Shown here piece by piece: positions 26,092-53,474 of a stretch of 64,000 nucleotides of DNA. The position numbers and the translations under genes are program-made. The stretch covers positions 3,167,694-3,231,693 of the forward strand of contig NZ_CH902583.1 in NCBI RefSeq assembly GCF_000152965.1. The letters are read 5' to 3'. The DNA is from Roseobacter sp. MED193. GTDB lineage: Bacteria; Pseudomonadota; Alphaproteobacteria; Rhodobacterales; Rhodobacteraceae. How positions within the stretch are numbered: the first letter of the stretch is position 1; each line of letters begins with the position of its first letter. The notes under the pieces are model-generated. The model had not been told where the DNA came from, did not search any database, and saw only the letters and a list, made by a program, of their open reading frames with translations.

Positions 26092-27292
26092 CTACGCCCC
26101 CTCTTCATAAGAGATCGTCCGCGAGTAGAGGACGACATTGACCCCGGCCTCGAGCATCTGCCGAGCGAAGTTCGCAAAATTCGTGTCGCGGTGGATCAAA
26201 TCGTCGCGGTTGTCGGCGTTCAACTCGAAACAGGAATAGTGGACAACCAGAAATTGTGGCGGGTGCTCGGCCCAGAGTTCGTCGGTCGACTGCCCTCGTG
26301 TCCAATTGCGCGGCATCGGCCGTGTAACGCCGACGGAGAGACCGCCTGACACGCTGGTAACGATTGCGCGGATGTTGCTGACTACTTCTGACGTATAGCG
26401 GGAGTCGCCCGGACAGCTTGCTATCGCTACGTCCCTTGCGTCGTATCGCTCCGGCCCCTCGACGAGATAGCCGCGGTCCGCGAGGACCTCGACAATCCAT
26501 CGCTCGACAAGTTCCTGTGCGTTCAGCCCCTCGCGCCCGCCGCGTTCGGCCGAGGGCTGAACGATCTGGTTGTGGCTGCCCGTAACCTCGACGAGGCTGT
26601 CGGTGCAGAGCGGCTCCACCCCAGCGCGGTCGACGATGCGTTCATCGGATTCAAAGGCGCAGAAGGTTGGAATGCGAATCCGCCTGTTGAGCCATTCTGT
26701 CTTCAGGACCGTCTGCACCTCGTCGCCGTCATTGTCGCGTTGGCGCAGGGCACTGACTAGTGGCCTGCTTTCCTTTAGGCGGCTACCGAGATTTGCTAGG
26801 GCCGAGCCGCCGGTAGGGCTGGCGAAGAGAAAGAGACCTGCCGTGCGGACGCGCAGGCCCGGATCGTCCAGCAGAGCCCGTCGCAATACGAGGCCGCCGA
26901 GGCTGTGGCCGATGAAATAGATTTCGCTGTAACGGTCAATGCCGTCGGCCCCTGAGTTGCCGCGCTAGATCGCCTGAGACGCTGGTGAAGCTGCGGCCGT
27001 TCCAGGCGTCGCTGTCATAATTGGCGACGTAGATGTCCTGATCGCGGAAGATCTCCGAAAGCGTGAGGAGAAGTGGCCAGGGCAGGCCCTCCTCGGGTGT
27101 CCAGGTCGAGACTGCGTTATCGCCATTGCGCGAACTGAGGCCATGGACGAAGACTACGACCCGATTTGCAGCCGCGTCGGGTGCCGCGTCGCGGCGGACA
27201 TAGCCGGGGGCGTGCAGTTCCTGCGCGATGCCGGACGAGGCAGTTACGAGGAGGAGTATAGCCAGCATCCGGCTCGCGCGTCTGAAGATCAT
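26092..27292 (-). pseudogene. Secreted alpha/beta hydrolase, frameshifted
   Basis: Two frames together make one alpha/beta hydrolase. The 5' part (27,292 down to about 26,945) starts with a Sec signal (MIFRRASRMLAILLLVTASS) and contains the oxyanion segment VVVFVHGLSSRNG and IYVANYDSD; it stops at 26,936. The 3' part resumes one frame over with YSEIYFIGHSLGG (nucleophile elbow), LFLFASPTGGSAL and a long C-terminal region with VTGSHNQIVQP carrying the likely catalytic His. The break lies in a GGGG run near 26,955, so a single-base indel explains it; a sequencing error is possible. If intact it would be a roughly 400-aa lipase/esterase-like protein (PGAP1/DUF676-like). Confidence 0.75.
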
Positions 27293-27688
27293 TTCGTCCC
27301 CGTCGATTCGGTATCTCCCAAGTGATCGCCTTTGAAGGCAATTCAACAGTCCCAGGTGCCATCTGACAAGGCCTGTCAAACGGAAACGTCCTTTGCACTT
27401 TACTTCGGATTGCGCGGAGGCACATTTTATGATGTGGTGCCCCCGACGGCATTTATGTCCTAAGGTGGGTCTGCGAAGAACCACAGCAGCTAGGAATAGC
27501 GTCCGTCACCATTCGTCAATGTCAGCTTCCGGAATGCCGCAATGCGGCATCTGACCGGACAACCAGTGTTCGCTCTGGGCCGTTTACGTCGACCAAATCC
27601 GGTTTGCAATTTTCATGTAAGCCATTGTTCTCCATGTGAGTGAAACGCACACAGTTTACAATTTTTCTGTTTGTTTTCAGCGATACTC
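27293..27688. other. Intergenic region with no supported gene
   Basis: About 400 bp upstream of the hydrolase pseudogene. No coding frame, repeat or RNA structure could be supported. It ends at the tRNA-Cys fragment. Confidence 0.5.
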
Positions 27689-27843: not shown

Positions 27844-28233
27844 TCACCCGGATTGCCGCTCACTCAGGACTTTGTGCGCAATGCGAAAGCACTCCAGCGC
27901 CTGAGGGACGCCGCAATAGATGCCGATGACGTGGATGATCGCGCGGATCTCGTCTTGGGTAACGCCGTTGGTGATGGCGCCGCGGCAGTGAGTTTCCCAT
28001 TCTGCCATTTTGCCCAATGCTCCGATCATCGACAGGTTCATCATCGACCTTGTCTTTGCGTCGATCACATCATCGCCCCAACCAAAACCCCAACACCAAG
28101 CAGTCATCGCTTCCTGAAACGGACGGGTGAAATCATCTGCGGCGGCGAGGTTTTTTTCGACATACTCGGCCCCGAGCGTCGCCTTGCGTTGCTCAAGCCC
28201 TATTAGAAAGAGGTCTTCGTCAAATGTGCTCAT
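27844..28233 (-). CDS. Carboxymuconolactone decarboxylase family protein
   Basis: A 129-aa helical protein of the CMD/AhpD-like family. It shows WCWGFGWGDDVIDAKTRSMMNLSMIGALG and HCRGAITNGVTQDEIRAIIH in successive blocks, and YCGVPQALECF near the C-terminus. It differs from the pcaC product at 8466 and may be a decarboxylase, lactonase or peroxidase-type protein. It starts 5 bp after the aldehyde dehydrogenase stop and is the last gene of the leftward cluster, so it should act in the same pathway. Actual substrate unknown. Confidence 0.85.
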   Translation of the reverse strand: MSTFDEDLFLIGLEQRKATLGAEYVEKNLAAADDFTRPFQEAMTAWCWGFGWGDDVIDAKTRSMMNLSMIGALGKMAEWETHCRGAITNGVTQDEIRAIIHVIGIYCGVPQALECFRIAHKVLSERQSG

Positions 28234-28237
28234 GTGC

Positions 28238-29689
28238 TTATCCCTTCAGTTTGACGGCAACGTTTTTGGTCTGAACGTAGTTCCAAAGCGCCTCGCGCCC
28301 TTTTTCGCGGCCATGGCCGGATTTTCCGTAGCCTCCAAAGGGGGTTTCGACGCCGCCCGCATACCATTCGTTGACAAAAACCTGCCCCGCTCGCAGGGCC
28401 CGTGCAGCACTGGTGGCGCGGTCCAAATCGGCGGTAAAGACCCCCGCGACAAGGCCAAAATCGGTCCCGTTGGCGATCTCGATCGCCTCGGCGTCACTGC
28501 GAAAGGGCATGACCGACAGAACTGGGCCAAAGACCTCTTGCTGCGCAATTTCCATGTCAGGTGCTACAGATAGCACGGTTGGCTCCATAAAGGCGCCGAC
28601 GTGGTTGAGCGCATGGCCACCCGCCACAAGTTGCGCTTTCTGGTCTTGGGCCGCCGCCACCATTTGAACGGCGTGGTCGCGCTGAGCGTTCGAAACCATC
28701 GCGCCCATGTTGGCCCCAAATGTGTCCCGTTCGACCCCCGGCCCGACAGACAGGCCGCGCGCGACGGCTTCGGCGCGTTCCAGCATCTCGGCGTGGCGGC
28801 TTTCGTGCACGATCACGCGGGACATGGCAGAACAGACTTGGCCTGCGTTGAAGTAGATGCCCCAGCGGATGTCAGCCTCGAACGCTTCAAGGTCCGCGTC
28901 TGCATGAACGATGGCTGCGGATTTGCCGCCGAGTTCCAGTACGCAGGGCACCACGTTGCCAGCGGCGGTCTTTGCAATCGCAATCCCGGTCGGAACTGAG
29001 CCAGTGAAGACGATCTGGTTCACATCCGGGTGCGCCGATAGGGCGGCACCTGCCTCGTGGCCTAATCCGCACAGGATGTTGACCGCTCCTCTGGGCAATC
29101 CAACTGCTTCGGCTGCATGGGCGAACCAGGCATTCGTTAGCGGTGTTAGCTCTGGCGTTTTGACCACGCAGGCGTTGCCCGTCGCCAGTGCAGCAGACAG
29201 GGACCGTGCGGTCATTTCAAGCGGGTAGTTCCACGGGATGATCTGGCCTGAGACGCCAAGGGGTTCGTGTTCCGTCCAGTCGAAATAGCCCGCACCCAGC
29301 GGGATTGATCGGCCTTCAACGGTGCTGGCCTGATTGCCGTAATATTCAAAATAAAGGGCGGCCCCTTCGACCTCGATTATTGCCTCCCAAAGAGGTTTCC
29401 CTTGTTCAAGTGTCAGCAGACGGGCGATGTCGTCTTTGTGGTCCAGCAGATAGCGGCCCATGGCTTGGACCAGGCGGCCCCGTTCAATCGGGCGCATATC
29501 GCGCAGAGCGCCTGACAGGTGAATGCGTTTTGCAGCCTGCACCGCGCGGTCCACGTCGCCTGCATCTGCCAGCGCATGAGCGGCAAGGACGGTCCCCGTC
29601 GCCGGATCGACCACATCAATCCGACCCGCGCTGCCATCGACCCATGCGCCATCGATATAGTTCTGCCAATAGTCTTTGATCTCAGCCAT
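28238..29689 (-). CDS. NAD(P)-dependent aldehyde dehydrogenase
   Basis: A 483-aa ALDH-superfamily enzyme with all catalytic parts: the Asn in IIPWNYPLEM (about N153), LELGGKSAAI with the general-base Glu (about E252), and FNAGQVCSAMSR with the nucleophile Cys (about C286), plus EVFGPVLSVMPF. The overall look is of betaine/aminoaldehyde-type ALDHs. The ATG at 29689 follows AGAGG and is preferred over the TTG at 29692; the coding region overlaps the Rieske oxygenase stop. It would oxidise an aldehyde generated in the pathway, such as a semialdehyde left after N-dealkylation or deamination. Confidence 0.92.
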   Translation of the reverse strand: MAEIKDYWQNYIDGAWVDGSAGRIDVVDPATGTVLAAHALADAGDVDRAVQAAKRIHLSGALRDMRPIERGRLVQAMGRYLLDHKDDIARLLTLEQGKPLWEAIIEVEGAALYFEYYGNQASTVEGRSIPLGAGYFDWTEHEPLGVSGQIIPWNYPLEMTARSLSAALATGNACVVKTPELTPLTNAWFAHAAEAVGLPRGAVNILCGLGHEAGAALSAHPDVNQIVFTGSVPTGIAIAKTAAGNVVPCVLELGGKSAAIVHADADLEAFEADIRWGIYFNAGQVCSAMSRVIVHESRHAEMLERAEAVARGLSVGPGVERDTFGANMGAMVSNAQRDHAVQMVAAAQDQKAQLVAGGHALNHVGAFMEPTVLSVAPDMEIAQQEVFGPVLSVMPFRSDAEAIEIANGTDFGLVAGVFTADLDRATSAARALRAGQVFVNEWYAGGVETPFGGYGKSGHGREKGREALWNYVQTKNVAVKLKG

Positions 29690-30770
29690 CAATTGCCTCT
29701 CGCATCCAGCGTTGCAGATGCATCACCGAATGTTCAGAATTCACACCACAATTCGGATCGACAACCAGCGGCCCAGGCACATAGCCCCGCGATTTCAGCC
29801 CGCGCTGGACACTTTCCACAAGGTGGATATCTTCCTCGACCGTGGTGGCCCGGTCCTGTTGTGCCATGCGGCGCACGGTTTCGTCGTCATAACCGCCAAT
29901 CGAATACCAGCCGCGCCAGACGACGACGTGATCGGCATCAATCGCGCGCCAGTGGTAGGTGTTCAGCAGATTCCCGGGATAGACTTGGAACGAGAACATC
30001 GGCCAAATGAACCAGCTTGAGTATTTGTCATTATTCTCAAAGCCGCTGTTGATGTCATAGCTCATCTGATCCAGCGGGCCGGATTCAGTTGTGTGGCGCA
30101 GGCAGTAGCCTTGGGGCTGGATATCGTAGGTTTCGGGCTTTATCACGCCAGTGGAAAAGGTTGGGTGGTTCAAGCTGCAATGATAGCATTCGGAATAATT
30201 CTCGACCGAGACCTTCCAGTTGCAATTCTCTGGGATATCGACCCATTCCAGCGGCTTCAGCTCCGCCCAATGAGGCAAGAAGCTTTCCAGTTCGGCACGT
30301 GCACCCGGAAACCAATCGTCCATAGGCTTGGCGCCCGCGTCGAGGTTGACGAAGATGAAACCCAGAAATTCTTCTGTGCGCACTTCGGTCAGGCAGATTT
30401 TGGACTTGTCGAACCCATCGACAGATTTGGTGTTGGGTGCCGCCCGTAAGCCGCCTGTTAGCTCATACGTCCATGCGTGATACGGACAGACAACGACGCG
30501 GGTTGATCCTTCGCCGCTGACAAGCTGATGGGCGCGGTGTTGGCAGACGTTGTAGAAGGTGCGGATCACCCCATCACGGCCCTTGATGCAAAACAGGCTC
30601 TCATCCGCGATGTCGAAGGCGAAATAATCGCCCGCGTTCTCCAACTGACTGGCGTGGCCCGCAAATTGCCATGTGCGCGCCAGAACACCTGCTTTTTCAG
30701 CAGCAAAGACGGTTGGGTCAGTGTAGTAGCGGGCTGCAAGCGACCGGACAGGTTCCGATATTGTGTTCAT
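29682..30770 (-). CDS. Rieske non-haem iron oxygenase, YeaW/CntA type (quaternary amine oxygenase)
   Basis: A 362-aa terminal oxygenase. The Rieske cluster ligands are C76 and H78 (NVCQHRAHQ) and C95 and H98 (VVCPYHAW). The mononuclear iron site is in VENYSECYHCSLNHP (H197, H202, with E194 before them). The C-terminal block VESVQRGLKSRGY is shared with YeaW and carnitine monooxygenase CntA, which act on quaternary ammonium compounds; GbcA and Stc2 are more distant relatives that demethylate glycine betaine and stachydrine. The likely reaction is oxidative C-N cleavage or N-demethylation of a betaine. No CntB/YeaX-type reductase is encoded nearby, so electrons must come from elsewhere. Its ATG overlaps the RpiR stop (ATGA). 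Confidence 0.9.
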   Translation of the reverse strand: MNTISEPVRSLAARYYTDPTVFAAEKAGVLARTWQFAGHASQLENAGDYFAFDIADESLFCIKGRDGVIRTFYNVCQHRAHQLVSGEGSTRVVVCPYHAWTYELTGGLRAAPNTKSVDGFDKSKICLTEVRTEEFLGFIFVNLDAGAKPMDDWFPGARAELESFLPHWAELKPLEWVDIPENCNWKVSVENYSECYHCSLNHPTFSTGVIKPETYDIQPQGYCLRHTTESGPLDQMSYDINSGFENNDKYSSWFIWPMFSFQVYPGNLLNTYHWRAIDADHVVVWRGWYSIGGYDDETVRRMAQQDRATTVEEDIHLVESVQRGLKSRGYVPGPLVVDPNCGVNSEHSVMHLQRWMREAIDG

Positions 30771-31663
30771 TCCGGCTCCTCCAAATAGATGCCAAGCTTG
30801 TGGCGGCGTTGATGGAATTTTTCGACACGCTCGACGATTTCCTCGGAGGCGACGGCGATGACAAAGCTGAGCAGTGTTTCCAGCAGAGCAATCGCGGAGA
30901 CTGATGACGGAAAGAACTGAGGTGTATCGACGGCGACTACAAACCCGTGGTCTGCCGCGCGGATGATCGGGCTGGCGGGGCTGTCACTGAGGCCGATGAT
31001 TGTCATGCCTTGTTCGCGGGCAACCTCAAGTGCCGCAATAACCTCAGAGCGATAGGGGCGCATCGACATCGCGATCAGAACATCGCGATTGTCGGCCCAG
31101 GCCAGATCATCCACGGCCGTGGAACCGGGGCGCGGGATGGCATGGAACTGTGTCATGCCGGTAGAGGCCAAATAGGTGAAATTGCGGGCATTGGCGTTGT
31201 TCACGCCGACGCCCAGCGTGAAGACTTGTCGACTGCCCCAGATGGCCTCAGCGGCCAGCTTCATGGCCTCGGCATCAATGCCTGAAAAGGTGTCTTCAAG
31301 ATTGCGGATCGCAGCCTCTGCCATATCGGCATAGAGCCCGCCGAGATCACCAGACTTGCGGATGTCTTGCAGCCAGCGGGCGCGGTCGGGAAAGCTGGCA
31401 GTGCCTTGCCGAATCGCATCTCGGAAGGGGGCGCGGAAATCATCGTAGCCCTCAAATCCCACTTGGCGGGCCATTCGCACGAAGGTGTTCGGCTTGACGC
31501 TTGCGGCTTCGGCAATCTCGCGCACGGTCGACACCCCCACGTCGTTTGGGTTCTCAAGCACATAGCGTGCTGCCTTTTGCGCCTCCGGTGTGAGAGCTTC
31601 CCATTCTTCGGTCAGCCGGTCCAGAACTTGCGATGATACATTTGTGCCATTCATGATTGACAT
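30767..31663 (-). CDS. RpiR-family (HTH_6 + SIS) transcriptional regulator
   Basis: A 298-aa regulator: N-terminal HTH_6 domain (LDRLTEEWEALTPEAQKAAR, STVREIAEAASVKPNTFVRM) and a C-terminal SIS phosphosugar-type domain from about residue 120 (GSRQVFTLGVGVNNANARNF, ADNRDVLIAMSMRPYRSEVI). It heads the leftward operon (regulator-oxygenase-ALDH-CMD) with overlapping genes, and faces the flavoprotein operon across only about 62 bp, so it probably controls both arms. Start MSIMNG at 31663 is chosen; MNGTNV at 31654 is possible, and a frame to 31714 would use up the divergent promoter. Confidence 0.87.
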   Translation of the reverse strand: MSIMNGTNVSSQVLDRLTEEWEALTPEAQKAARYVLENPNDVGVSTVREIAEAASVKPNTFVRMARQVGFEGYDDFRAPFRDAIRQGTASFPDRARWLQDIRKSGDLGGLYADMAEAAIRNLEDTFSGIDAEAMKLAAEAIWGSRQVFTLGVGVNNANARNFTYLASTGMTQFHAIPRPGSTAVDDLAWADNRDVLIAMSMRPYRSEVIAALEVAREQGMTIIGLSDSPASPIIRAADHGFVVAVDTPQFFPSSVSAIALLETLLSFVIAVASEEIVERVEKFHQRRHKLGIYLEEPE

Positions 31664-31725
31664 TGGTACATACGTTCTCCTAGCCTGTCCACACATTTTG
31701 CGACTCCCAGACAAAGGAAGCGACC

Positions 31726-34182
31726 ATGTCGGAAAAAATCTTTCCCACCCAGGCCCGCGTGGTCATCGTCGGCGGCGGAGTCATGGGGGTCGGGTTGGCC
31801 TACCATCTGGCGCATGAAGGGTGGGGCGATGACGTGGTCCTGCTGGAAAAAGCGGAGCTGACCTCTGGTAGCACTTGGCATGCGGCGGGGCAGATCACCC
31901 ACTCAACCTCCAGCTTTAGCCTTGGCAAATGCGTTGATTACAACATTGGCCTCTATTCCGGCGGGCTTGAGGCCGAGACGGGTCAAGCGGTGACGTGGCA
32001 TGGCTGCGGCTCGTTCAGACTGGCCTATACCGAGGATGAAATGGACTGGCTGCGCCACACGCTGTCTGTCGGACGCACGTTGGGGTTCAATATTGAATTG
32101 GTCGGGCCTGAGAAGGTGGCTGAATTGCATCCATTCTACAATCTCGAAGGTGTTCTGGGGGCACTGCACACACCCGATGACGGCCACGTGGATCCGACGA
32201 ATGTGACCATGGCCATGGCGGCGGGCGCCCGGGCCAAGGGCGCCCGGATCATCCGCCGTTGTCGCGCCACGAACATCACCCAAGCCGAAAGCGGCGAATG
32301 GGTGGTCGAAACCGAGAAGGGCACAATCACCTGCGAACATGTGGTCAACGCTGGCGGCACCTATGCCCGCCAGATGGGGGAATGGTCTGGGCTGCAACTG
32401 CCCATGACATCAATGACGCACCATTATTTTGTCACAGACGAGGTGCCGGAATTCCAGAATTTGGAACGCGAACTGCCCGTTATTCGCGATGATCGCAAAG
32501 TCTCTGGTTACATCCGGATGGAGCAGAAGAAGGGGCTGATTGGTATCTATGAGAAGGCCAACCCCAACACGGTCTGGGAAGATCACTGCCCGTGGGAGGC
32601 AGAGAACGAGCTGTTCGATGCTGACTATGATCGCGTCATGCCATGGCTTGAAGAGAGCCTCAATCGTATGTCGATCTTTGCCGATCTGGGCATCGCCCGC
32701 GATGTGCACGGCGCGATCTCGCATCCCCCCGATGGCAATCCGCTGATCGGCCCTGCTCCGGGTGTGCGCAATTACTGGTGCTGTTGCGGCACGCAGATCG
32801 GCATTGGTTGGGGGCCGGGTCTTACGCGAGAGTTAGCGCGCTGGATGGTCCATGGGGCTGCGGATATTTCGATGCGCGATTACGATCCACGCCGTTTTGG
32901 CAGCTATGCCACCAAGGAGTGGCAGGTGGTGAAGGCCCGCGAGGATTACTGTTTGCGGCATGAAATCCCGTTCCCGCATTTCAACCGTCTTGCAGGGCGA
33001 CCGATCAAACCCTCGCCCTTGCATGAGACACTGAAAGCCAAGGGAGCGGTGCACGAAGAGGTTTACGGCTTTGAACGCCCCCGCTGGTTTGCCCGTAATG
33101 GCGTCGCGCAAGAGGATCACTACTCCTTCCGCCGGACGGTTGTTGATGACATGGTGGCGACTGAGGTCAAGGCCGTGCGCGAAAGCGTGGGGATCATGGA
33201 TGTCACCGCCTTCACCAAGATTGAAGTGGCTGGCCCCGATGCCTACGCCCTGCTGGATCGGCTCACCGCGAACCGGATGCCGCAGAAGGTCGGGTCCATC
33301 ACGCTCACTCATATGTTGAACCGTGCGGGCCGGATCGAGTTGGAGACCACCATCGTGCGCATGGCTGAGGATCGCCTTTACTTGGTCTGCGCCGCCTTCT
33401 TTGAACAGCGCTTGCTGGATCATCTGGAAGCGCACCGCGATGGCGCTGATGCCATCGTGACTGCCTTGTCCAGCACATGGGGCGCGCTGTCACTGAACGG
33501 GCCAAGGTCCCGCGATGTGCTGGGTGCTTGCACCGATGCGGCGCTGGACAATGCGTCTTTCCGCTGGCTATCCGCGCAGAAAATCACCATCGCCGGCCAC
33601 AAGGTCTGGGCCTTGCGTGTGTCCTATGCTGGCGAGTTGGGCTGGGAATTGCACATGCCATATGCCGCGATGGTCGATGTTTACAGCGCGCTTTGGTCCG
33701 CAGGCCAGGCGTATGGCATAACGGATTACGGCAGCTTTGCGATGAACGCGATGCGGATGGAAAAGGGCTTCAAAGGTGCGGGCGAGCTGACTAACGAGGT
33801 GACACTGGTCGAGGCCGATGTGCTTCGCTTTGCGCGCACGGACAAGGACTACCTTGGCCGCGACAAGACGCTCAATAGCGAAATGGCATGGATCTGCGCC
33901 TACCTTGAGATTGAGCCGGATGGCGAGATTGACGGCCATGGTGGTGAGGCGATCTTGCTGAATGGCACCGTTGTCGGGTCTACCGCTTCAGTAGCATACG
34001 GCCCGACCGTGGGCAAAATCCTTGCCTTTGCCTATATCAAACCGCAGGCGGCTGACCCCGGCACGGCGCTTGAGGTTGTTATCCATGGCTCGCCCCGAAA
34101 GGCACGCGTGCTGGGCGAGCCCGCGTATGATCCGCAAAGTTTGCTGCCACGCACGGATGCCGTGCTGGAGCCAGCACCGTGA
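31726..34182 (+). CDS. Dimethylglycine/sarcosine dehydrogenase-like flavoprotein with GcvT domain
   Basis: An 818-aa two-module enzyme. The N-terminal DAO module has the FAD motif VVIVGGGVMGVGLAYHLA and GSTWHAAGQ with W51-H52, the position of covalent FAD attachment in dimethylglycine dehydrogenase. A central FAO_M-type linker precedes a C-terminal GcvT-like aminomethyltransferase module (about residues 430-810; SYAGELGWELHMP, MRMEKGFKG). Enzymes of this build oxidatively demethylate N-methyl amino acids and pass the C1 unit to tetrahydrofolate. Here it would act after the Rieske oxygenase. AAGGA precedes the ATG. The next gene overlaps its stop (GTGA). Confidence 0.9.
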   Translation: MSEKIFPTQARVVIVGGGVMGVGLAYHLAHEGWGDDVVLLEKAELTSGSTWHAAGQITHSTSSFSLGKCVDYNIGLYSGGLEAETGQAVTWHGCGSFRLAYTEDEMDWLRHTLSVGRTLGFNIELVGPEKVAELHPFYNLEGVLGALHTPDDGHVDPTNVTMAMAAGARAKGARIIRRCRATNITQAESGEWVVETEKGTITCEHVVNAGGTYARQMGEWSGLQLPMTSMTHHYFVTDEVPEFQNLERELPVIRDDRKVSGYIRMEQKKGLIGIYEKANPNTVWEDHCPWEAENELFDADYDRVMPWLEESLNRMSIFADLGIARDVHGAISHPPDGNPLIGPAPGVRNYWCCCGTQIGIGWGPGLTRELARWMVHGAADISMRDYDPRRFGSYATKEWQVVKAREDYCLRHEIPFPHFNRLAGRPIKPSPLHETLKAKGAVHEEVYGFERPRWFARNGVAQEDHYSFRRTVVDDMVATEVKAVRESVGIMDVTAFTKIEVAGPDAYALLDRLTANRMPQKVGSITLTHMLNRAGRIELETTIVRMAEDRLYLVCAAFFEQRLLDHLEAHRDGADAIVTALSSTWGALSLNGPRSRDVLGACTDAALDNASFRWLSAQKITIAGHKVWALRVSYAGELGWELHMPYAAMVDVYSALWSAGQAYGITDYGSFAMNAMRMEKGFKGAGELTNEVTLVEADVLRFARTDKDYLGRDKTLNSEMAWICAYLEIEPDGEIDGHGGEAILLNGTVVGSTASVAYGPTVGKILAFAYIKPQAADPGTALEVVIHGSPRKARVLGEPAYDPQSLLPRTDAVLEPAP

Positions 34183-35261
34183 GCTTGCCAGCAACGATGC
34201 GCGCTGTGGTCACGATGGGACACGGCGATCTGGATCAACTGGTGTTGCATCCCGACTGGCCGCGCCCCGATCCTGAGCCGGGTGAGGTGCTTATCCGCGT
34301 CGGCGCTTGCGGGCTGAACAACACCGATGTGAACACGCGCTCTGGCTGGTACTCCAAGACAGTGACGGATGCCACAACGGGCGGTGCCTTTGACGAGGTG
34401 GGCGAAGATGACCCGACATGGGGCGGCGCACCGATCACCTTTCCGCGCATTCAGGGGGCTGATGTCTGCGGCACCATCGTTGCCGTGGGCGCAGGTGTCG
34501 ATGCCGCGCGTATTGGCGAGCGCGTCATCACGGACGGCTGGCTGAGAGACGCAGACGCGCCTGAGGACATGAACAAGACCGGATATTTCGGGTCAGAGCG
34601 CAATGGTGGCTTTGCCGAATATACGACCATACCGTCCAGCAATGCCCTGGACGTGAATTCCACGCTGAGCGACGCCGAACTGGCGACATTTTCTTGCTCT
34701 TATTCTACGGCTGAAGGCATGTTGACCCGCGCCCGGGTTACGGCGGACGATACAGTGCTCATCCCCGGCGCGTCCGGCGGTGTAGGCGGTGCGCTGGTGC
34801 AACTGGCCAAACGCCGTGGTGCGCGGGTTATCGCAATAGCATCAGAGGGGAAACACAGCGATGTGGCGGCCCTTGGTCCGGATATGATCCTGCCGCGCGC
34901 GCCTGCCCATCTGCGCAGTGCTTTGGGCGATGAACGCATTACGGTCGTGGCCGATGTTGTCGGTGGCCCGTATTGGCCCAGCTTGATCGACATCCTGGAA
35001 CGGGGCGGGCGCTACACCTGCTCGGGCGCGATTGCAGGGCCGATGGTGTCCCTTGATCTGCGCACCTTCTATCTGCGTGATCTGACGTTCACAGGCTCGA
35101 CCGTCATTGATCTGGAAGTCATGCCCAACATCGTGCGCTATATTGAGGAAGGCGCGATCAAGCCCTCCCTCGCCGCCACCTATCCACTTGAGGATTTGCG
35201 CGCTGCCCAGAGCGCTTTCATCGCCAAAGAGCACACTGGCAACATCGTCGTGACGCCATGA
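34179..35261 (+). CDS. MDR-family zinc-free oxidoreductase (quinone reductase-like)
   Basis: A 360-aa medium-chain dehydrogenase/reductase: CGLNNTDVNTRSGWYS at the substrate end, a GSERNGGFAEYTTIP block, and the nucleotide-binding VLIPGASGGVGGALVQLAKRRG. No catalytic-zinc cysteine pair is evident, which fits the quinone-oxidoreductase or crotonyl-CoA-reductase-like branch. The start is a GTG overlapping the flavoprotein stop; an ATG lies at 34,197. It is unrelated in close sequence to the reductase at 20,996. Its role in the pathway is not clear: reduction of an enone or unsaturated intermediate would fit the enolase-superfamily partners. Confidence 0.85.
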   Translation: MSLPATMRAVVTMGHGDLDQLVLHPDWPRPDPEPGEVLIRVGACGLNNTDVNTRSGWYSKTVTDATTGGAFDEVGEDDPTWGGAPITFPRIQGADVCGTIVAVGAGVDAARIGERVITDGWLRDADAPEDMNKTGYFGSERNGGFAEYTTIPSSNALDVNSTLSDAELATFSCSYSTAEGMLTRARVTADDTVLIPGASGGVGGALVQLAKRRGARVIAIASEGKHSDVAALGPDMILPRAPAHLRSALGDERITVVADVVGGPYWPSLIDILERGGRYTCSGAIAGPMVSLDLRTFYLRDLTFTGSTVIDLEVMPNIVRYIEEGAIKPSLAATYPLEDLRAAQSAFIAKEHTGNIVVTP

Positions 35262-36364
35262 AGATCACCCGCATCACCGTCTATCAGATTGCCTTACCGC
35301 TGGAGCATCCTTATTGGCTGTCCGGTGGGCGGCTCAAGTTCGAGGTTCTCGATGCCACGCTGGTGAAAATCGAAACCGGTACGGGACTCACGGGCTGGGG
35401 CGAAGGCACGCCCTGGGGACATACCTATGTGCCTGCCCATGGTCCGGGCATCCGCGCAGGGATCGAGACGATGGCCCCCTTCATCATTGGCCTTGATCCG
35501 CGCCGGGGACTGGAAATCGAGCGGGCGATGGACCTTGCGCTGCCGGGGCATCTCTATGCCAAATCCCCCATCGACATGGCCTGTTGGGACATCGCAGGCC
35601 AAGCGGCGGGCCTTTCGATTGCTGATCTGATGGGCGGCGGATCGCGCACGCCGCGACCGATCGCGTCGTCTGTCGGGGCAAAGACCGTGGAAGAAACCCG
35701 CGCCGTTATCGAGCGTTACCGCCAGCGCGGCTATGTTGCCCATTCGGTTAAAATCGGCGGCGATATAGAACGCGATATCGCACGCGTGCGTGATGTGGAA
35801 AGTCTGCGTCGCGATGGCGAAATCGTCCTCTATGACGTCAATCGCGGCTGGACCCGCCAGCAGGCCTTACGTGTTATGTCCGCAACCGAAGACCTGAACG
35901 TGATGTTTGAGCAACCCTGCGAAAGCCTTGACGACATCGCGGCGATCGCAGGCAAATATGCGGCGCCTGTGTCTGTCGATGAAAGCCTTGTGACATTGCA
36001 AGACGCCGCCCGCATTGCGAGGGACGGATTGGCTGAGGTGTTTGGCATCAAGTTGAACCGCGTGGGTGGCCTGACCAAGGCAGCACGTATGCGCGACATC
36101 GCCTTGGCACACGGTATCGATATGTTTGTCATGGCGACGGGCGGGTCTGTGCTGGCCGACGCTGAGGCGCTGCATCTGGCCGCGACTATTCCGGATGCAA
36201 ACTGCCACGCGGTCTGGGCGTGCCAGGATATGATCACGCTGGACATCGCAGGCGGGCGTGGCCCACGCAATATTGACGGCCACCTCCACCTAACGGAAGC
36301 GCCGGGTCTCGGCGTGCATCCCGACGAAGATGTCTTGGGCGATCCGGTGGGGGTGTACGGATGA
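35258..36364 (+). CDS. Enolase-superfamily enzyme (MLE subgroup) 1
   Basis: A 368-aa mandelate racemase/muconate lactonising enzyme family protein. Acid-base and metal residues can be placed: K165 (HSVKIGG), D193 (LYDVNRGW), E218 (MFEQPC), D241/E242 (SVDESL) and K265 (GIKLNRVGG). The KxGG instead of KxK and the EQPC block recall the proline-betaine 2-epimerase HpbD and cis-3-hydroxyproline dehydratase branch. It would abstract the alpha proton of a carboxylate substrate, giving epimerisation or dehydration. ATGA overlaps on both sides couple it to its neighbours. The exact reaction is inferred from family and context. Confidence 0.86.
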   Translation: MKITRITVYQIALPLEHPYWLSGGRLKFEVLDATLVKIETGTGLTGWGEGTPWGHTYVPAHGPGIRAGIETMAPFIIGLDPRRGLEIERAMDLALPGHLYAKSPIDMACWDIAGQAAGLSIADLMGGGSRTPRPIASSVGAKTVEETRAVIERYRQRGYVAHSVKIGGDIERDIARVRDVESLRRDGEIVLYDVNRGWTRQQALRVMSATEDLNVMFEQPCESLDDIAAIAGKYAAPVSVDESLVTLQDAARIARDGLAEVFGIKLNRVGGLTKAARMRDIALAHGIDMFVMATGGSVLADAEALHLAATIPDANCHAVWACQDMITLDIAGGRGPRNIDGHLHLTEAPGLGVHPDEDVLGDPVGVYG

Positions 36365-37464
36365 AGATCAAACGCCTCTCTCTTTGGCATGTGCCGCTGA
36401 CCAGTCACACGGCCTATTACATGGCAGAAGGCAAAACCTGCGACACGGTTGAAACAGCGGTGCTTTGCATTGAAACCGACACAGGCCTGACCGGCTGGGG
36501 CGAGGTTTGCCCGATCCCGCATTACCTGCCTGCCTACGCGCGCGGTGTGGGGCCGGCGTTGTCCGAGCTTGCACCGGTTATTCTTAGCGCTGATCCCATC
36601 GGGCCAGAGGCGCTCATGGCCAAAGCAGACGCCTATTTACCCGATCATCGTTATGCTAAATCGGCGCTTGATATCGCCCTTTGGGATCTTACCGGGCAAG
36701 CCGCGGGGCTTCCACTTCATGCGCTTCTCGGTGGGCAAAGGCAGGCTGATTTGCCGCTGTATCATTCGATTACCTGTATTGAGCCTGACGAAATGGCTCG
36801 CATCGCAATTGAGGCACAGGCGCAGGGTATGACCCAGTTTCAAGCGAAATTGGGTGCGTCGGGTGACTGGCAAACGGATGTCGAGAGATTGATCAAGGTG
36901 CGCGAGGCCGTTGGCAGTGGGCCCATTCTTTATGGCGACTGGAACTGTGGCTCGACCTCACTGGATGCAACGCGCACGGGCCGCGCAGTGGCACATCTGG
37001 ATATCATGCTGGAACAGCCCTGCGCCACGATCGAAGATTGCGCGCGTGTGCACAGTGCCACAGGCCTTCCCATGAAGCTTGACGAATTGGTCCACGACAC
37101 GGCCAGCCTCCTGAAGGCGCATCAGTTGGGGCTAATGGACGTTGCCGCACTCAAACTGTCAAAGTTTGGGGGACTATCGGCCACCCGGCGTGCGCGTGAT
37201 CTTTGCCTGCATCTGGGGGCCAAGATGTGCGTTGAGGACACGTGGGGAAGCGACATCACAACAGCAGCCGTCCTGCATCTTGGTGCCGCCACTGATCCTG
37301 CAAGGGTGCTGAATGTCTGTGACCTGTCTGGCTACGTCTCGCCGCGTCTTGCCCAGGATGCGCCCACGCGCGCACAGGGCCGCATCGCCCCACCCCAAGC
37401 GGCGGGCCTTGGCATCGCCGTTGACAAAACCGCCCTGGGCCAACCTGAACTAATACTGGACTGA
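36361..37464 (+). CDS. Enolase-superfamily enzyme (MLE subgroup) 2
   Basis: A 367-aa paralogue of the preceding gene, well diverged from it. Catalytic residues fall at the same positions: K163 (QAKLGAS), D193 (LYGDWNCG), E218 (MLEQPC), D241/E242 (KLDELV) and K265 (ALKLSKFGG). KLGA matches the form seen in hydroxyproline-betaine epimerase HpbD. The third ligand region has DELV instead of DESL, so substrate preference should differ from copy 1. Two tandem members in one operon suggest either two successive proton-abstraction steps or handling of two stereoisomers. Confidence 0.86.
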   Translation: MKIKRLSLWHVPLTSHTAYYMAEGKTCDTVETAVLCIETDTGLTGWGEVCPIPHYLPAYARGVGPALSELAPVILSADPIGPEALMAKADAYLPDHRYAKSALDIALWDLTGQAAGLPLHALLGGQRQADLPLYHSITCIEPDEMARIAIEAQAQGMTQFQAKLGASGDWQTDVERLIKVREAVGSGPILYGDWNCGSTSLDATRTGRAVAHLDIMLEQPCATIEDCARVHSATGLPMKLDELVHDTASLLKAHQLGLMDVAALKLSKFGGLSATRRARDLCLHLGAKMCVEDTWGSDITTAAVLHLGAATDPARVLNVCDLSGYVSPRLAQDAPTRAQGRIAPPQAAGLGIAVDKTALGQPELILD

Positions 37465-37468
37465 GAAT

Positions 37469-38761
37469 ATGCAAAAACTGACCACCCAAGCCGAATGGAC
37501 CCAACGCGCCCGCGCGGTTTTGCCCGCTGCGGGGTTCGGAAATTTTGACGCCAGTATCGTGATCGCCCGCGGTGAGGGCAGTCATGTCTGGGATGAGGAT
37601 GGCAATGAATACATCGATTACCTGATCGGATCGGGTCCGATGTTGCTGGGTCATGGCGATGATGAAGTCATGGAGGCCGTACTTGAGCAGCTGCCAAAGG
37701 GTATGACCTTTTTCGCCAATAACGCGCAAGGCATCGCGCTGGCCGAGGCGATAGTGGATGCGGTGCCCTGCTGCGAACAGGTGCGCTTTGTGACCTCGGG
37801 GGGGGAAGCGGACATGTATGCGATCCGACTGGCTCGCGCCTATACAGGCAAGAGCAAGATCCTGAAATTCGAAGGTGGCTACCACGGGATGAGCGCCGAA
37901 GCTCAGATGAGCCTTGCCCCTGCAAGGGCCGTGAACTTTCCCACTGCTGTTCCGGACAGCGCGGGCATTCCGCAAGGTGTCGCTGACGAGATGCTGATAG
38001 CACCCTTCAACGACCTTGAGGCCGTGGCATTGCTTTTGTCAGAGCATGACGATATCGCCGCAATCATTGCAGAGCCTTTGCAGCGGATTATCCCGGCGGC
38101 CCCCGGCTTTTTGCAAGGGCTTCGCGCTTTGTGCGACAAACACGGCGTTTTGTTGATCTTTGACGAGATCGTAACCGGCTTTCGCCTTGCCTATGGCGGG
38201 GCACAGGAACGCTACGGCGTGACGCCGGATATCTGCACGTTGGGCAAAATCATCGGCGGCGGGTTCCCTTTGGCGGCCCTCGGAGCCAGCGTTGAAATCA
38301 TGGCGCATTTTGATAAGACTCACGTGGGGGCTGAGAAGTGGCTGATGCAACTGGGCACATTGTCTGGCAATCCGGTTGCGGCAGCTGCGGGCCTAAAGAC
38401 GATGGAAATCCTGCGCCGTCCTGGCCAATATGATCGCTTGCGCGCGCTCGGCCAAAGCTTGATGGACATGCAGACTATGGCGCTAACTGAGGCGGGAATT
38501 GCCCACCGAGTTTGCGGTGATCCGACCCTGTTTGATATCTATTTCACCAGCCACGACGTCAAAGATTACCGCAGTGCGAAACATCTGGACCCACAAGACA
38601 ACGCGACCTGGAACGCAAGCTTGCGGGAGCAAGGTATCTTCAAATCACCCGGTAAGCTGTATCCGTCACTTGCCTTGACTGAATCTGACCTGCACCAGAC
38701 CAAAGAAGCTTTCAGGAATGCCGCGGTAGCACTCGAGAGCAGCAAGTCGGTTAACGCGTGA
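37469..38761 (+). CDS. Class III aminotransferase, glutamate-1-semialdehyde aminomutase-like
   Basis: A 430-aa PLP enzyme of fold type I. It has YIDYLIGSGPMLLGH, the PLP phosphate region TSGGEADMYAIRLAR, YHGMSAEAQ, LIFDEIVTGFR and the Schiff-base Lys in CTLGKIIGGGFPLAA. The family includes HemL and also beta-amino-acid and omega-amino-acid aminotransferases. In a catabolic operon far from tetrapyrrole genes, a transaminase or aminomutase acting on a demethylated amino acid is more likely than HemL. It starts 4 bp after the second enolase and ends the rightward operon. No terminator is evident. Confidence 0.88.
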   Translation: MQKLTTQAEWTQRARAVLPAAGFGNFDASIVIARGEGSHVWDEDGNEYIDYLIGSGPMLLGHGDDEVMEAVLEQLPKGMTFFANNAQGIALAEAIVDAVPCCEQVRFVTSGGEADMYAIRLARAYTGKSKILKFEGGYHGMSAEAQMSLAPARAVNFPTAVPDSAGIPQGVADEMLIAPFNDLEAVALLLSEHDDIAAIIAEPLQRIIPAAPGFLQGLRALCDKHGVLLIFDEIVTGFRLAYGGAQERYGVTPDICTLGKIIGGGFPLAALGASVEIMAHFDKTHVGAEKWLMQLGTLSGNPVAAAAGLKTMEILRRPGQYDRLRALGQSLMDMQTMALTEAGIAHRVCGDPTLFDIYFTSHDVKDYRSAKHLDPQDNATWNASLREQGIFKSPGKLYPSLALTESDLHQTKEAFRNAAVALESSKSVNA

Positions 38762-41315: not shown

Positions 41316-41846
41316 ATGCAACACCCCATTGACCCAATGCGCATCGATCTCCCCTCAGTTCGTAAGCCCGTCGCTGAAGACGGAGCCAAGGTTTGGGAGC
41401 TGGTGCAGGCTTGCAAGCCGCTTGATGAGAACTCCATGTACTGCAATCTCTTGCAGAGCGATCATTTTGCCGGCACCTGCTGTCTGGCAGAATTGTCCCA
41501 AGAGATGGTGGGCTGGGTCTCTGCTTATGTATTGCCCAATGATCCTGAAACGCTGTTTGTTTGGCAGGTCGCCGTGGCCGAAAATGCGCGTGGACGCGGG
41601 CTGGGCTCCATGATGTTGCAATCCATTCTGCGGCGACCTCAGTGCAAAGACGTAAACCGCCTGCAAACCACTATCACCGCTGACAATAATGCTTCCTGGT
41701 CCTTGTTTCGCAGGTTCGCGAGTTTTCAAGACAGCCAGATGGACATCCAACCCTACTACACGCAGGCCCTGCATTTCCAAGAACGGCACAAGACGGAAAA
41801 CCTCGTCACTATTCCTCTGACAAGGCAGCAGGCGCTCGCAGCCTGA
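41316..41846 (+). CDS. ectA: L-2,4-diaminobutyrate acetyltransferase
   Basis: GNAT-fold enzyme that acetylates 2,4-diaminobutyrate with acetyl-CoA, the second step of ectoine synthesis. The 176-aa protein has DENSMYCNLLQSDHFAGTC, typical of EctA, and the acetyl-CoA loop ENARGRGLGS. TAGGAG precedes the ATG. First gene of ectABC; the ectB start follows 66 bp after its stop. Confidence 0.95.
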   Translation: MQHPIDPMRIDLPSVRKPVAEDGAKVWELVQACKPLDENSMYCNLLQSDHFAGTCCLAELSQEMVGWVSAYVLPNDPETLFVWQVAVAENARGRGLGSMMLQSILRRPQCKDVNRLQTTITADNNASWSLFRRFASFQDSQMDIQPYYTQALHFQERHKTENLVTIPLTRQQALAA

Positions 41847-41912
41847 GCGATGCGTATGCCGTTTTTTGCCAGCCAGTTCTTCCTGCCCCCTCTCAAATCT
41901 GAAAGAAACCCT

Positions 41913-43199
41913 ATGTCTACACAGCTTGCCAGCAAGGCCATTTTTGGTCGTCGGGAATCCGAAGCCCGCAGCTATTGCCGCGGGTTTGATACAGTCTTCA
42001 CGTCCGCCACGGGCTCCGAGATGATCGACCAAAGCGGACGGCGATACATTGACTTTCTTGCTGGGTGTTCGTCTTTGAACTACGGGCACAATGATCCGGA
42101 CATGAAACGCGCCCTGATAGCGCATTTGGAAGCCGATGGTGTTGCCCATGGTTTGGACATGCACACAGCAGCAAAGGCCCGGTTTCTAGAAGTTTTTGAG
42201 CAGTTTATCTTGCAGCCACGTGAGGTGGATCACAGGGTGATGTTTACCGGACCGACGGGAGCAAATGCTGTTGAGGCGGCGATGAAAATCGCCCGCAAGG
42301 CCACTGGACGCAGCAATATCATCTCCTTCACCAATGGGTTTCATGGTGTCACCCAGGGCGCCCTGGCAGCAACTGGCAACAGCTATCACCGTGGCGGTGC
42401 CGGAGTGACGCTCAACAATGTGACGCGGATGCCCTATGACGGCTTTATGGGACAGTCCTGTGACACAACTGATTTTCTGGAGGCCATGCTTAAGGATCGC
42501 TCTTCGGGCCTGGACGCACCTGCCGCAATTTTGCTGGAAACAGTTCAGGGTGAAGGCGGGTTGAATGCCGCCACGACGGATTGGTTGCAGCGCGTTGCAG
42601 AGCTGGCGAAGGAGGCCGGTGCTCTATTGATCGTCGATGACATTCAGGCAGGCTGTGGGCGCACGGGTGGGTTCTTTTCCTATGAAGAGTCTGGCATCAG
42701 CCCTGATATCGTGACCCTGGCAAAATCAATATCTGGCTTTGGCCTGCCCATGGGGCTGGTGCTCGTTAAGCCAGAACATGATGTCATGGGGCCGGCCGAG
42801 CATAACGGGACATTTCGGGGCAATACTCATGCCTTTGTGACTGCCACCGTTGCCATTGAAAAGTTCTGGTCAGATGACAGTTTGCAGAAGGATATTCTGC
42901 GCCGTTCAGAGATCATTGCGCGGGGGCTGCAAGCCCTTGCTGAGATGGTTCCTGATGCGCGCCTTAAGGGGCGCGGCATGATGCGGGGCGTGGACCTGCG
43001 ATGTGGTGATCTGGCAGGCAAGATCTGCGCGCGGGCTTTTGAGCAGGGCCTCATTATTGAGACTTCGGGCTCCGAAGATCAGGTGGTCAAGATCCTTGCG
43101 CCCCTTACAACGCCTGACAGCATGCTTGAGGCCGGGCTCACTATTCTCATCAACGCCGCACAGGATGTGATTGGCGCCCAAAAATTTGCCGCGGAGTAA
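41913..43199 (+). CDS. ectB: Diaminobutyrate-2-oxoglutarate transaminase
   Basis: PLP class III aminotransferase of 428 aa that forms 2,4-diaminobutyrate from aspartate semialdehyde. Typical EctB features: [20 protein letters not shown]-type start, [47 protein letters not shown] and the Lys in [13 protein letters not shown]. Start at MSTQLASK after GAAAGAAA; the frame extends back to 41,850 without support. Confidence 0.95.
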
Positions 43200-43203
43200 G
43201 GCT

Positions 43204-43602
43204 ATGATTGTACGAGACTTCAACGAAATCATTAAAAGCGAGCGGGGCCGCGTCGTATCAGACGCCAAGTGGAGCAGCGTGCGGATGCTGCTGGCAGAAG
43301 ATCAAATGGGGTTTTCTTTCCATATCACATTCCTCGAGGCTGGCTCCGAGCACACATTTGAGTACAAAAATCACTTTGAGAGTGTCTATTGCATGCAGGG
43401 AACCGGTTCGATCACGGACCTCGCGACAGGTGAGATCCACCTCATTCGCCCAGGGGTTATGTATGCTTTGGATAAACACGACCGTCATACTCTTGTTGCT
43501 GAAGAAGAACTGGTCATGGCCTGTTGTTTCAATCCGCCCGTAACCGGAAATGAAACCCATCGAGAGGATGGATCCTACGCCTTAGAGGCTGAAAATGCCT
43601 GA
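43204..43602 (+). CDS. ectC: L-ectoine synthase
   Basis: Cupin-fold enzyme of 132 aa that cyclises N-gamma-acetyl-diaminobutyrate to the compatible solute ectoine. Family motifs are [36 protein letters not shown] and [12 protein letters not shown]. It starts 4 bp after ectB. No ectD hydroxylase or ectoine-specific aspartokinase follows, so the product is ectoine unless those genes are elsewhere. Confidence 0.96.
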
Positions 43603-43613
43603 TTTTTTCCAGC

Positions 43614-43652
43614 GGAGGCAGGTGTGATTTCTTGAAAGTCTTGCCTCCTTTA
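43614..43652 (+). terminator. Candidate terminator after ectC
   Basis: GGAGGCA (43,614-43,620) pairs perfectly with TGCCTCC (43,642-43,648), followed by TTTAA. The loop is long (21 nt) and the T-tract short, so it may terminate weakly. Confidence 0.45.
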
Positions 43653-43687
43653 AGGGCAGCAGGCACGCCATCGCCAGGAGACTGGAT

Positions 43688-47462: not shown

Positions 47463-47465
47463 GGG

Positions 47466-50077: not shown

Positions 50078-50239
50078 AACGACCTCCCAACTTTCGCACA
50101 ATTTGACGGGAGAACGCCGAACCACCTCAACCGATATGTTTTCATTCGACAGCTGAGAAATTCATACTCACGCGGTCGGAAAAATGGGCTACGATGCAGG
50201 GGCGGCAAACTGATCCAAAGGAAAACAAAACAGCGCGAT

Positions 50240-51166: not shown

Positions 51167-51274
51167 CACTGCAACCGGGCGCCTTTGGTGAGTTCATTCG
51201 TCGGGTGAATTCTTGTCATTTTTAAACTGCGCGGGGTCATGCGTTTCTGGACATCCAATCTGGAGTTTCAGCGC

Positions 51275-53459: not shown

Positions 53460-53474
53460 CAAGGAGCAAAGTAA

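Follow-up and report, generated by a model that had tools for sequence, protein, structure and literature searches.

Among the group V Rieske oxygenases, an aromatic residue at position 203 of the carnitine monooxygenase CntA characterizes clade Va (CntA, choline monooxygenase, OxyBAC), whereas Asn characterizes the demethylating clade Vb; in CntA itself, Tyr203 is the cation-pi residue, Glu205 is the bridge and the residues contacting carnitine have been named (PMC7948474). Some group V enzymes carry a Cys-X-X-Cys stretch (PMC10952381). Concerning dimethylsulfoniopropionate (DMSP), dddP and dddQ are said to outnumber the other bacterial DMSP lyase genes in a marine metagenome and to be induced by DMSP, the Km of DddQ is given as 22 mM, and dddQ mutants lost 97% of dimethyl sulfide (DMS) production in R. 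pomeroyi and 20% in R. nubinhibens (PMC5395565). Induction by DMSP is reported as 40-fold for dddW and 1–4 fold for dddP and dddQ (PMC4437653). In both species dddQ is probably co-transcribed with a gene of the medium-chain dehydrogenase/reductase (MDR) family, and the MDR of the R. nubinhibens dddQ cluster is reported to have failed to correct the acrylate sensitivity of an Escherichia coli yhdH mutant (PMC3338564). Here we present a divergent cluster at positions 27844–38761 of a 64,000-nucleotide stretch of Roseobacter sp. MED193 (contig NZ_CH902583.1), the whole of which is called the window. It encodes a CMD-family protein, an aldehyde dehydrogenase (ALDH), a Rieske oxygenase and an RpiR-type regulator on one strand and, on the other, a flavoprotein resembling dimethylglycine dehydrogenase (DMGDH), an MDR-family reductase, two enolase-superfamily enzymes (enolase-1 and enolase-2) and a class III aminotransferase. 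The window holds the dddQ-less form of an operon in which DddQ lives. We judge the cluster to be, probably, a pair of inducible catabolic operons for a betaine-type (quaternary-ammonium) compound bearing a carboxylate and, probably, another polar group such as a hydroxyl.

The cluster is genuine and intact, all nine open reading frames (ORFs) being free of internal stops. It is no chance assembly, since the Rieske, RpiR and flavoprotein genes co-occur in 39 of 40 fetched loci of the family (11–20 kb each), namely in all 39 with a Rieske orthologue and not in L063, whose Rieske protein is 40% identical. Across 394 family genomes we obtained 81 Rieske matches at E <= 1e-60, and 63 genomes, that of the window included, hold an orthologue (at least 51% identity, the next level being 40%). 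No orthologue was found in the 11 other genomes of the genus searched, where the best match is a 34% paralogue. Orthologues are also present in Rhizobiales, in Gammaproteobacteria and on plasmids. A second set of named loci (80 kept of at least 585 relatives among 596 candidate stretches) comes from Roseovarius, Ruegeria, Leisingera, Shimia, Nitratireductor, Mesorhizobium, Halomonas and Gammaproteobacteria; gene counts use the 50 of at least 19 kb, with identity thresholds set per gene. Within these 50, RpiR was detected in 46, the flavoprotein in 44, enolase-2 in 41, the aminotransferase in 40, the MDR in 39, the CMD protein in 37, enolase-1 of the type of PDB 3EEZ in 28, ALDH and a third enolase in 21 each, and DddQ in 18. 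Add-on genes encode a sulfotransferase-like and an Asp/Glu-racemase-like protein (15 loci each), a protein of the formaldehyde-activating family GFA (13) and an enolase-1 of the type of PDB 2QDD (8). MDR and enolase-1 are present together or missing together in 47 of the 50 loci (36 both, 11 neither, 3 MDR alone, 0 enolase-1 alone), and enolase-2 and aminotransferase in 44 (36 both, 8 neither, 6 discordant). The cluster is thus modular, with a Rieske/RpiR/flavoprotein core, a pair of enolase-2 and aminotransferase, a pair of reductase and enolase-1, and add-ons.

Smaller forms exist. Ten of the 40 family loci (L049, L053, L059, L064, L069, L070, L074, L080, L081 and L083) have the core and neither MDR nor enolase-1; L071 looks the same, with its contig ending there. 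The most divergent named clusters (L159–L162, Rieske 45–48% identical) keep flavoprotein and RpiR in all four cases and an aminotransferase (40–43%) in three. The operon was found on four plasmid records, one of them typed as conjugative (L185, Sulfitobacter sp. SK012), with sulfatases and a tripartite tricarboxylate transporter in its vicinity. On another (L186, Ruegeria sp. SCSIO 43209) no RpiR is annotated between the divergent operons, and a C-P lyase (phosphonate) operon is nearby. Given the patchy distribution and the plasmid copies, the cluster has probably spread by horizontal transfer.

Within the operon of relatives, a further gene family occurs in 12 of the 40 family loci; its two scanned members belong to Pfam DMSP_lyase and one scanned member matches DddQ structures at 6e-22. 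The clearest case is Silicibacter (Ruegeria) lacuscaerulensis ITI-1157 (L155), with the order flavoprotein, MDR, dddQ, enolase-1, enolase-2, aminotransferase and gaps of approximately 5–15 bases between matched stretches. Its DddQ is the crystallized protein PDB 4LA2 (192 of 192 residues identical). In the named loci dddQ lies directly after the MDR gene in 15 of 20 cases, after enolase-1 in 2 and in an operon with no detected MDR in 3; the last three count against a fixed DddQ–MDR pair. The six active-site residues reported to be essential for DddQ (PMC4437653) are kept in 24 of 24 in-cluster relatives of the named loci. By position, the MDR of the window corresponds to the MDR gene that PMC3338564 places next to dddQ in R. 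pomeroyi and R. nubinhibens; enolase-1 overlaps the window MDR by 4 nt where dddQ usually sits, and no match to the DMSP lyase family PF16867 was found in the window genome. Because the window version lacks the gene, its genome shows no match to the lyase family, and the crystallized DddQ lies inside the same operon elsewhere, dddQ is optional to the operon, which in roseobacters appears to serve betaine-type catabolism. Comparison of sequences establishes the core, both coupled pairs and the optional status of dddQ, which elsewhere usually sits after the MDR gene.

PF16867, matched in 165 of the 394 family genomes, is too broad a marker, and DddQ of L155 was therefore used as query. It gave 78 matches at E <= 1e-12 in 63 of the 394 genomes, 25 of them within 12 kb of a Rieske orthologue. 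This share varies with identity to the query: 4/4 at 60% or above, 6/12 at 45–60, 2/11 at 40–45, 11/30 at 35–40 and 2/21 below 35. A dddQ-like gene lies within 12 kb of the Rieske gene in 19 of the 63 orthologue-bearing genomes and anywhere in 31 of them, compared with 32 of the remaining 331 genomes (Fisher odds 9.1, p = 4e-12, kinship ignored). Most dddQ-like genes lie outside the full cluster, as 53 of the 78 are beyond 12 kb of a Rieske orthologue; 20 of these places were fetched, and a cluster orthologue (at least 60% identical) was near dddQ in 9 and absent in 11. In L174 and L175 dddQ adjoins a CMD gene 83–86% identical to that of the window, and the stretch fetched shows no further gene of the cluster. 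Scored for 52 loci (19 of them with dddQ) on a tree built from 80 Rieske proteins, presence of dddQ requires 9 changes, at least 6 of them forced by well-supported branches, against an average of 15.8 for shuffled labels, so that this accessory gene has come or gone on several occasions, yet in a non-random manner. As a separate observation, two gammaproteobacterial loci carry a DddP-like M24 protein beside an MDR (L150:16079-17314 and L154:7145-8416; 261–270 bits, cut-off 600), a second DMSP-lyase-like family in the same system and unrelated to DddQ.

Regarding the Rieske oxygenase, the best solved relative is CntA (PDB 6Y8J, 5.6e-62 over residues 14–355, 114 of 339 aligned residues or 34% identical), followed by stachydrine demethylase (1.8e-33), the uncharacterized chain 3N0Q (1.1e-31, deposited as a 'putative aromatic-ring hydroxylating dioxygenase') and cinnamate dioxygenase (2.8e-26). 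Residues Y192, E194, H197, H202 and D314 align with Y203, E205, H208, H213 and D323 of CntA. All 20 orthologues compared have the bridging Glu and the 2-His-1-Asp ligands (E194, H197, H202, D314); 19 of them have the cation Tyr192, which is the clade Va state, and the remaining one has His. The protein also contains ECYHC, of the Cys-X-X-Cys type. By its residues it is a group V (quaternary-ammonium) oxygenase, and action on a quaternary ammonium compound is predicted. The six other contact residues of CntA are all changed (Y225 to T214, F258 to Y250, N270 to Q262, Y295 to R286, Y315 to D306 and F319 to T310), and the replacements are common to the orthologues (T214 in 19 of 20, the other five in 20 of 20 each). 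Because these changes are shared, the orthologues may well act on one substrate, other than carnitine, that combines a cation with an anion (Arg286) and with another group that is polar or cationic (Asp306).

Both enolases have the cis-3-hydroxyproline dehydratase NF043002 as best NCBIfam model, with 315.1 and 319.1 bits against a cut-off of 500; the third, optional enolase scores 396–425 in the three members tested. Sugar-acid dehydratase models give approximately 82 bits or less, so that both stay outside the characterized sugar-acid dehydratases among which they might have fallen. The Lys pair and Asp-Glu-Asp metal ligands, positions (K, K, D, E, D) which we take to be catalytic, are kept in 49 of 49 enolase-1 and 75 of 75 enolase-2 orthologues, window copies included. 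The original prediction had called both enzymes HpbD-like, and the loop upholds this for enolase-2 and not for enolase-1. Specifically, enolase-2 has E-D-T-W-G-S where HpbD has D-D-A-W-G-G, a loop of the HpbD/4MGG type (Cys replaces Asp in 35 of the 75 orthologues), and enolase-1 has M-A-T-G-G, in 49 of 49. Identity to HpbD (2PMQ; we take 2PMQ and 4H2H to be HpbD) and to the Paracoccus relative 4E8G is 31–36%. The enolase-1 slot may instead hold an enzyme 65–79% identical to 2QDD, and four loci hold an enolase 63–77% identical to 2PCE. The 3EEZ and 2QDD types behave as alternatives in one slot, since they were never found together (0 of 50 named loci).

The flavoprotein aligns over residues 6–800 with human DMGDH (PDB 5L46, 1.4e-153), a full-length fusion of a flavin adenine dinucleotide (FAD) domain (DAO) to GcvT. 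Four paralogues, 34–38% identical, are encoded elsewhere in the window genome (five such proteins in all); its substrate need not be dimethylglycine, and dimethylglycine activity is predicted at most. The aminotransferase scores 377.7 bits with NF000818 (cut-off 398) and 352.4 with the HemL equivalog TIGR00713 (cut-off 527.3), and the ALDH is nearest the betaine-aldehyde type, below the cut-off of TIGR01804 (406 vs 668.6). In Mesorhizobium the operon additionally includes a ferredoxin reductase and both subunits (alpha, beta) of an electron transfer flavoprotein (ETF), adjoining the aminotransferase gene. This reductase is HcaD/AndAa-like, of the kind serving Rieske enzymes (313 bits, cut-off 450), and its closest relatives in the window genome, 42% and 40% identical, are elsewhere on the same contig. 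Reductase and ETF fit a supply of electrons to the Rieske enzyme and their removal from the flavoprotein. Importers adjoin some copies, PotABCD-like in Roseovarius THAF8 and of the Opp/Nik type in Mesorhizobium, and differ from those named for glycine betaine; in Roseovarius THAF8 a substrate-binding protein is encoded beside the operon (L187:6300-7331, minus strand). A cluster-wide transporter was rejected, the two importer types being unrelated and having few homologues near other copies; optional modules aside, recurrent gene families near the named loci peak at 5 of 80 loci, with no common transporter. A trimethylamine N-oxide (TMAO) demethylase match (E <= 1e-100) was present in 14 of the 44 Rieske-orthologue genomes tested out of 63 (10 of 44 above the curated cut-off) and absent from the window genome. 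Since this enzyme is patchy and the window genome is without a match, trimethylamine is spoken against as the usual product, and its release was weakened as a candidate. MttB-family (trimethylamine methyltransferase-like) proteins were also observed close to the cluster or to a relative of the enolase or flavoprotein (L105:1312-2862, L134:16279-17868, L149:11554-13101; 234–274 bits, cut-off 525).

The following pathway may be proposed. The Rieske enzyme would bind the cation through Tyr192 and an anionic group through Arg286 and oxidize the carbon beside the nitrogen, N-demethylation being slightly favored over C-N cleavage or alcohol oxidation, with electrons coming from a reductase encoded elsewhere. 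The DMGDH-like flavoprotein would strip further N-methyls as methylene-folate. Enolase-2 and then the aminotransferase could epimerize or dehydrate the demethylated acid and remove its nitrogen; enolase-1 and the MDR might carry out elimination and then reduction for hydroxylated or stereo-variant substrates, and ALDH and the CMD protein would finish the carbon skeleton. Attack at the quaternary nitrogen, transfer of methyl to folate and transamination are favored because the flavoprotein is, next to RpiR, the most constant partner of the Rieske gene and because of the reductase and ETF of Mesorhizobium; the GFA proteins of 13 of the 50 loci and the importers beside some copies also count in favor of the betaine-type reading, and elimination followed by reduction is suggested by the coupling of the MDR with enolase-1 and often DddQ.

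Several observations pull the other way. Demethylation as the first step is argued against by the clade Va Tyr of the Rieske enzyme, whose pocket positions come from an alignment at 34% identity with CntA and not from a structure. No reductase gene was found beside the Rieske gene, in the cluster or in the seven flanking ORFs scanned, and no betaine-specific transporter was found for the window cluster. RpiR regulators usually sense sugar phosphates, and GFA proteins are often not formaldehyde enzymes. The co-occurrence counts given above ignore kinship, and in Halomonas smyrnensis (L148) Rieske, ALDH and MDR are present, with flavoprotein and RpiR not seen.

Of the other explanations, a variant pathway for proline betaine or hydroxyproline betaine, combining a Rieske demethylase, an HpbD-like epimerase and a 3-hydroxyproline dehydratase, fares best and is still improbable. 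It would account for the best model of both enolases and for the D-x-W loop that enolase-2 shares with HpbD and 4MGG, but the enolase scores, those of the third enolase included, stay below the cut-off, the Rieske enzyme has Tyr where stachydrine demethylase has Asn, and an aminotransferase is paired with enolase-2, whereas proline catabolism needs none. Membership of this system was rejected on the residues and score cut-offs.

A sulfonium (DMSP-type) operon, as dddQ in relatives suggests, is in our view slightly less probable again. The crystallized DddQ within the R. lacuscaerulensis operon, the kept active sites, the DMS loss of the R. pomeroyi mutant and a cation-pi site that could also hold a sulfonium would suit it. 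Against it stand the presence of dddQ near the Rieske gene in 19 of 63 genomes, the window genome without a PF16867 match, the absence of acrylate rescue by the R. nubinhibens MDR, the weak induction of dddQ beside that of dddW, and core enzymes of amine-oxidizing and demethylating types. A real DMSP role of DddQ is not denied, given the mutant DMS losses and the reported induction. Tentatively, and with more doubt than belief, DddQ may not be a DMSP enzyme at root: it would have arisen in, or been recruited to, a betaine-type operon as a beta-eliminating lyase with an amine leaving group, feeding an unsaturated acid downstream, usually to the MDR. Cleavage of DMSP, at its millimolar Km, would then be a side activity that became useful because the operon resides in DMSP-rich bacteria, and the window the dddQ-less form of a new pathway.

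Degradation of an N-methylated pyridine acid (homarine, trigonelline), with MLE-like and PcaC-like proteins acting on the ring-cleavage product, seems about as improbable as a sulfonium operon. In its favor are the PcaC-like CMD protein, an optional gene similar to the Asp/Glu-racemase/arylmalonate-decarboxylase superfamily, and the frequent mention of both compounds in a marine metabolome paper (PMC8269262). However, the cluster contains no ring-cleavage enzyme, and such a route offers no obvious place for a class III aminotransferase. The homarine operon, which the literature searched did not yield, also differs in its make-up. Least probable is a pathway for carnitine or gamma-butyrobetaine around a CntA orthologue, cleaving C-N to trimethylamine and an aldehyde oxidized by the ALDH: CntA is the best solved relative, its Tyr203 is kept and the ALDH and Rieske genes overlap by 11 nt, but six differing contact residues, changes common to 19–20 of 20 orthologues, and the lack of a CntB-type reductase among the flanking genes examined led us to reject it, TMAO demethylase in 14 of 44 genomes also weighing against it. 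Carnitine and proline betaine are thus unlikely substrates, and a different betaine-type compound stays the preferred reading.

The features of the cluster are collected in Table 1.

Table 1. Features of the divergent cluster in the Roseobacter sp. MED193 window (nt, nucleotides; aa, amino acids).
Feature	Position	Strand	Evidence
CMD-family protein, PcaC-like	27844..28233	-	Pfam CMD 63 bits; TIGR02425 115 bits, cut-off 155.7
Aldehyde dehydrogenase (ALDH)	28238..29692	-	Pfam Aldedh 502 bits; TIGR01804 406, cut-off 668.6
Rieske oxygenase, group V (quaternary-ammonium type)	29682..30770	-	Pfam Rieske + Ring_hydroxyl_A; PDB 6Y8J CntA 5.6e-62
RpiR-type regulator	30767..31714	-	Pfam HTH_6 + SIS
Divergent intergenic region	31715..31725	.	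ORF coordinates; 31655-31725 (~71 nt) with the 295-aa RpiR start
DMGDH-like FAD/folate flavoprotein	31726..34182	+	Pfam DAO + FAO_M + GCV_T + GCV_T_C; PDB 5L46 1.4e-153
MDR-family reductase	34179..35261	+	Pfam ADH_N + ADH_zinc_N
Enolase-1, PDB 3EEZ orthologue type	35258..36364	+	Pfam MR_MLE; 88% identity to 3EEZ
Enolase-2, 4MGG/HpbD-like loop	36361..37464	+	Pfam MR_MLE; 39% to 4MGG, 35% to HpbD
Class III aminotransferase, nearest glutamate-1-semialdehyde aminomutase	37469..38761	+	Pfam Aminotran_3; NF000818, TIGR00713 scores

Two divergent, tightly packed runs together fill the region. According to the ORF coordinates, overlaps of 4 nt join RpiR/Rieske, flavoprotein/MDR, MDR/enolase-1 and enolase-1/enolase-2, one of 11 nt joins Rieske/ALDH, and gaps of 4 nt separate ALDH/CMD and enolase-2/aminotransferase. 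The RpiR start is ambiguous: with the 315-aa form the operons are 11 nt apart, and a 295-aa form, starting approximately 60 nt downstream and predicted in a number of orthologues, would put about 71 nt between them. An operator candidate in the divergent promoter, TAGCCTGTC, was rejected, showing no enrichment over shuffled sequence; sigma-70 promoter and terminator predictions were at shuffle level. Among the NCBIfam models listed (the best 25 for ALDH, flavoprotein and aminotransferase), the curated cut-off was reached for none of the nine proteins, and for this reason none of them can be assigned to a known isofunctional family. The original prediction, a nine-gene divergent cluster for betaine-like catabolism matching no nameable pathway, holds in outline: the nine ORFs agree with it in position and Pfam domain content, the Rieske matches support the betaine theme, with CntA and stachydrine demethylase preceding any characterized aromatic-ring oxygenase, and we likewise know of no pathway that it fits. 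The CMD-like protein is PcaC-like, though below the TIGR02425 cut-off. The nine genes do not form a fixed set, given the forms without MDR, enolase-1 or ALDH, and the link to dddQ had been missed.

Around the cluster, two minus-strand ORFs (26936-27484 and 26092-26886) look by eye like two parts of one alpha/beta-hydrolase-type protein, perhaps interrupted; they show HGLSS and ASPTGG stretches, and neither has a Pfam match at E <= 0.001. Just downstream (41316-44353) lie a GNAT acetyltransferase, a GntR regulator and a second class III aminotransferase, only 29% like that of the cluster. Another catabolic island (46530-55630) comprises a BPD_transp_2 ABC transporter, a LysR regulator, an amidohydrolase and an amidase.

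Probable co-transcription of dddQ with the MDR gene is already in the literature, and the remaining operon looks like an apparently undescribed pathway: no title or abstract opening in the literature searched describes such a pathway, and no description of the rest of the dddQ operon was found there, the first publication on dddQ (Todd et al., 2011) being outside the search. That the operon of DddQ is common, gene for gene, to bacteria without dddQ offers a concrete alternative natural role and a substrate panel. The weak DMSP induction (PMC4437653) and the Km of DddQ (PMC5395565) make this operon context matter, and the cluster may show what DddQ is really for. Additionally, it provides a functional setting for enolase structures deposited without tested function, directly for 3EEZ and through relatives in the same operon for 2QDD and 2PCE, and it suggests that coastal bacteria have a sink for nitrogen osmolytes that is still unassigned.

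Compared with known systems, the flavoprotein has the full-length FAD and GcvT architecture of mitochondrial dimethylglycine dehydrogenase, from which it differs as one of five such proteins in its genome. The Rieske enzyme shares with CntA the bridging Glu, cation Tyr, 2-His-1-Asp ligands and Cys-X-X-Cys, whereas it is 34% identical, has its carnitine contacts replaced, no CntB neighbour found and other partner enzymes. With the hydroxyproline-betaine (Hpb) cluster the locus has in common the combination of a Rieske enzyme and an MLE-subgroup enolase, together with the enolase-2 loop motif; here, however, there are two to three enolases, a flavoprotein and an aminotransferase, and the Rieske enzyme has Tyr instead of Asn. 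Finally, the dddQ operon of Ruegeria and Roseovarius (SPO1593–SPO1596 region; ISM_14095 with dddQ1/dddQ2), treated in the dddQ papers cited here as part of DMSP metabolism, differs by the dddQ-type cupin that the window version lacks. It has the divergent architecture in common with the window and, as in L155, the same order of flavoprotein, MDR, enolase-1, enolase-2 and aminotransferase.

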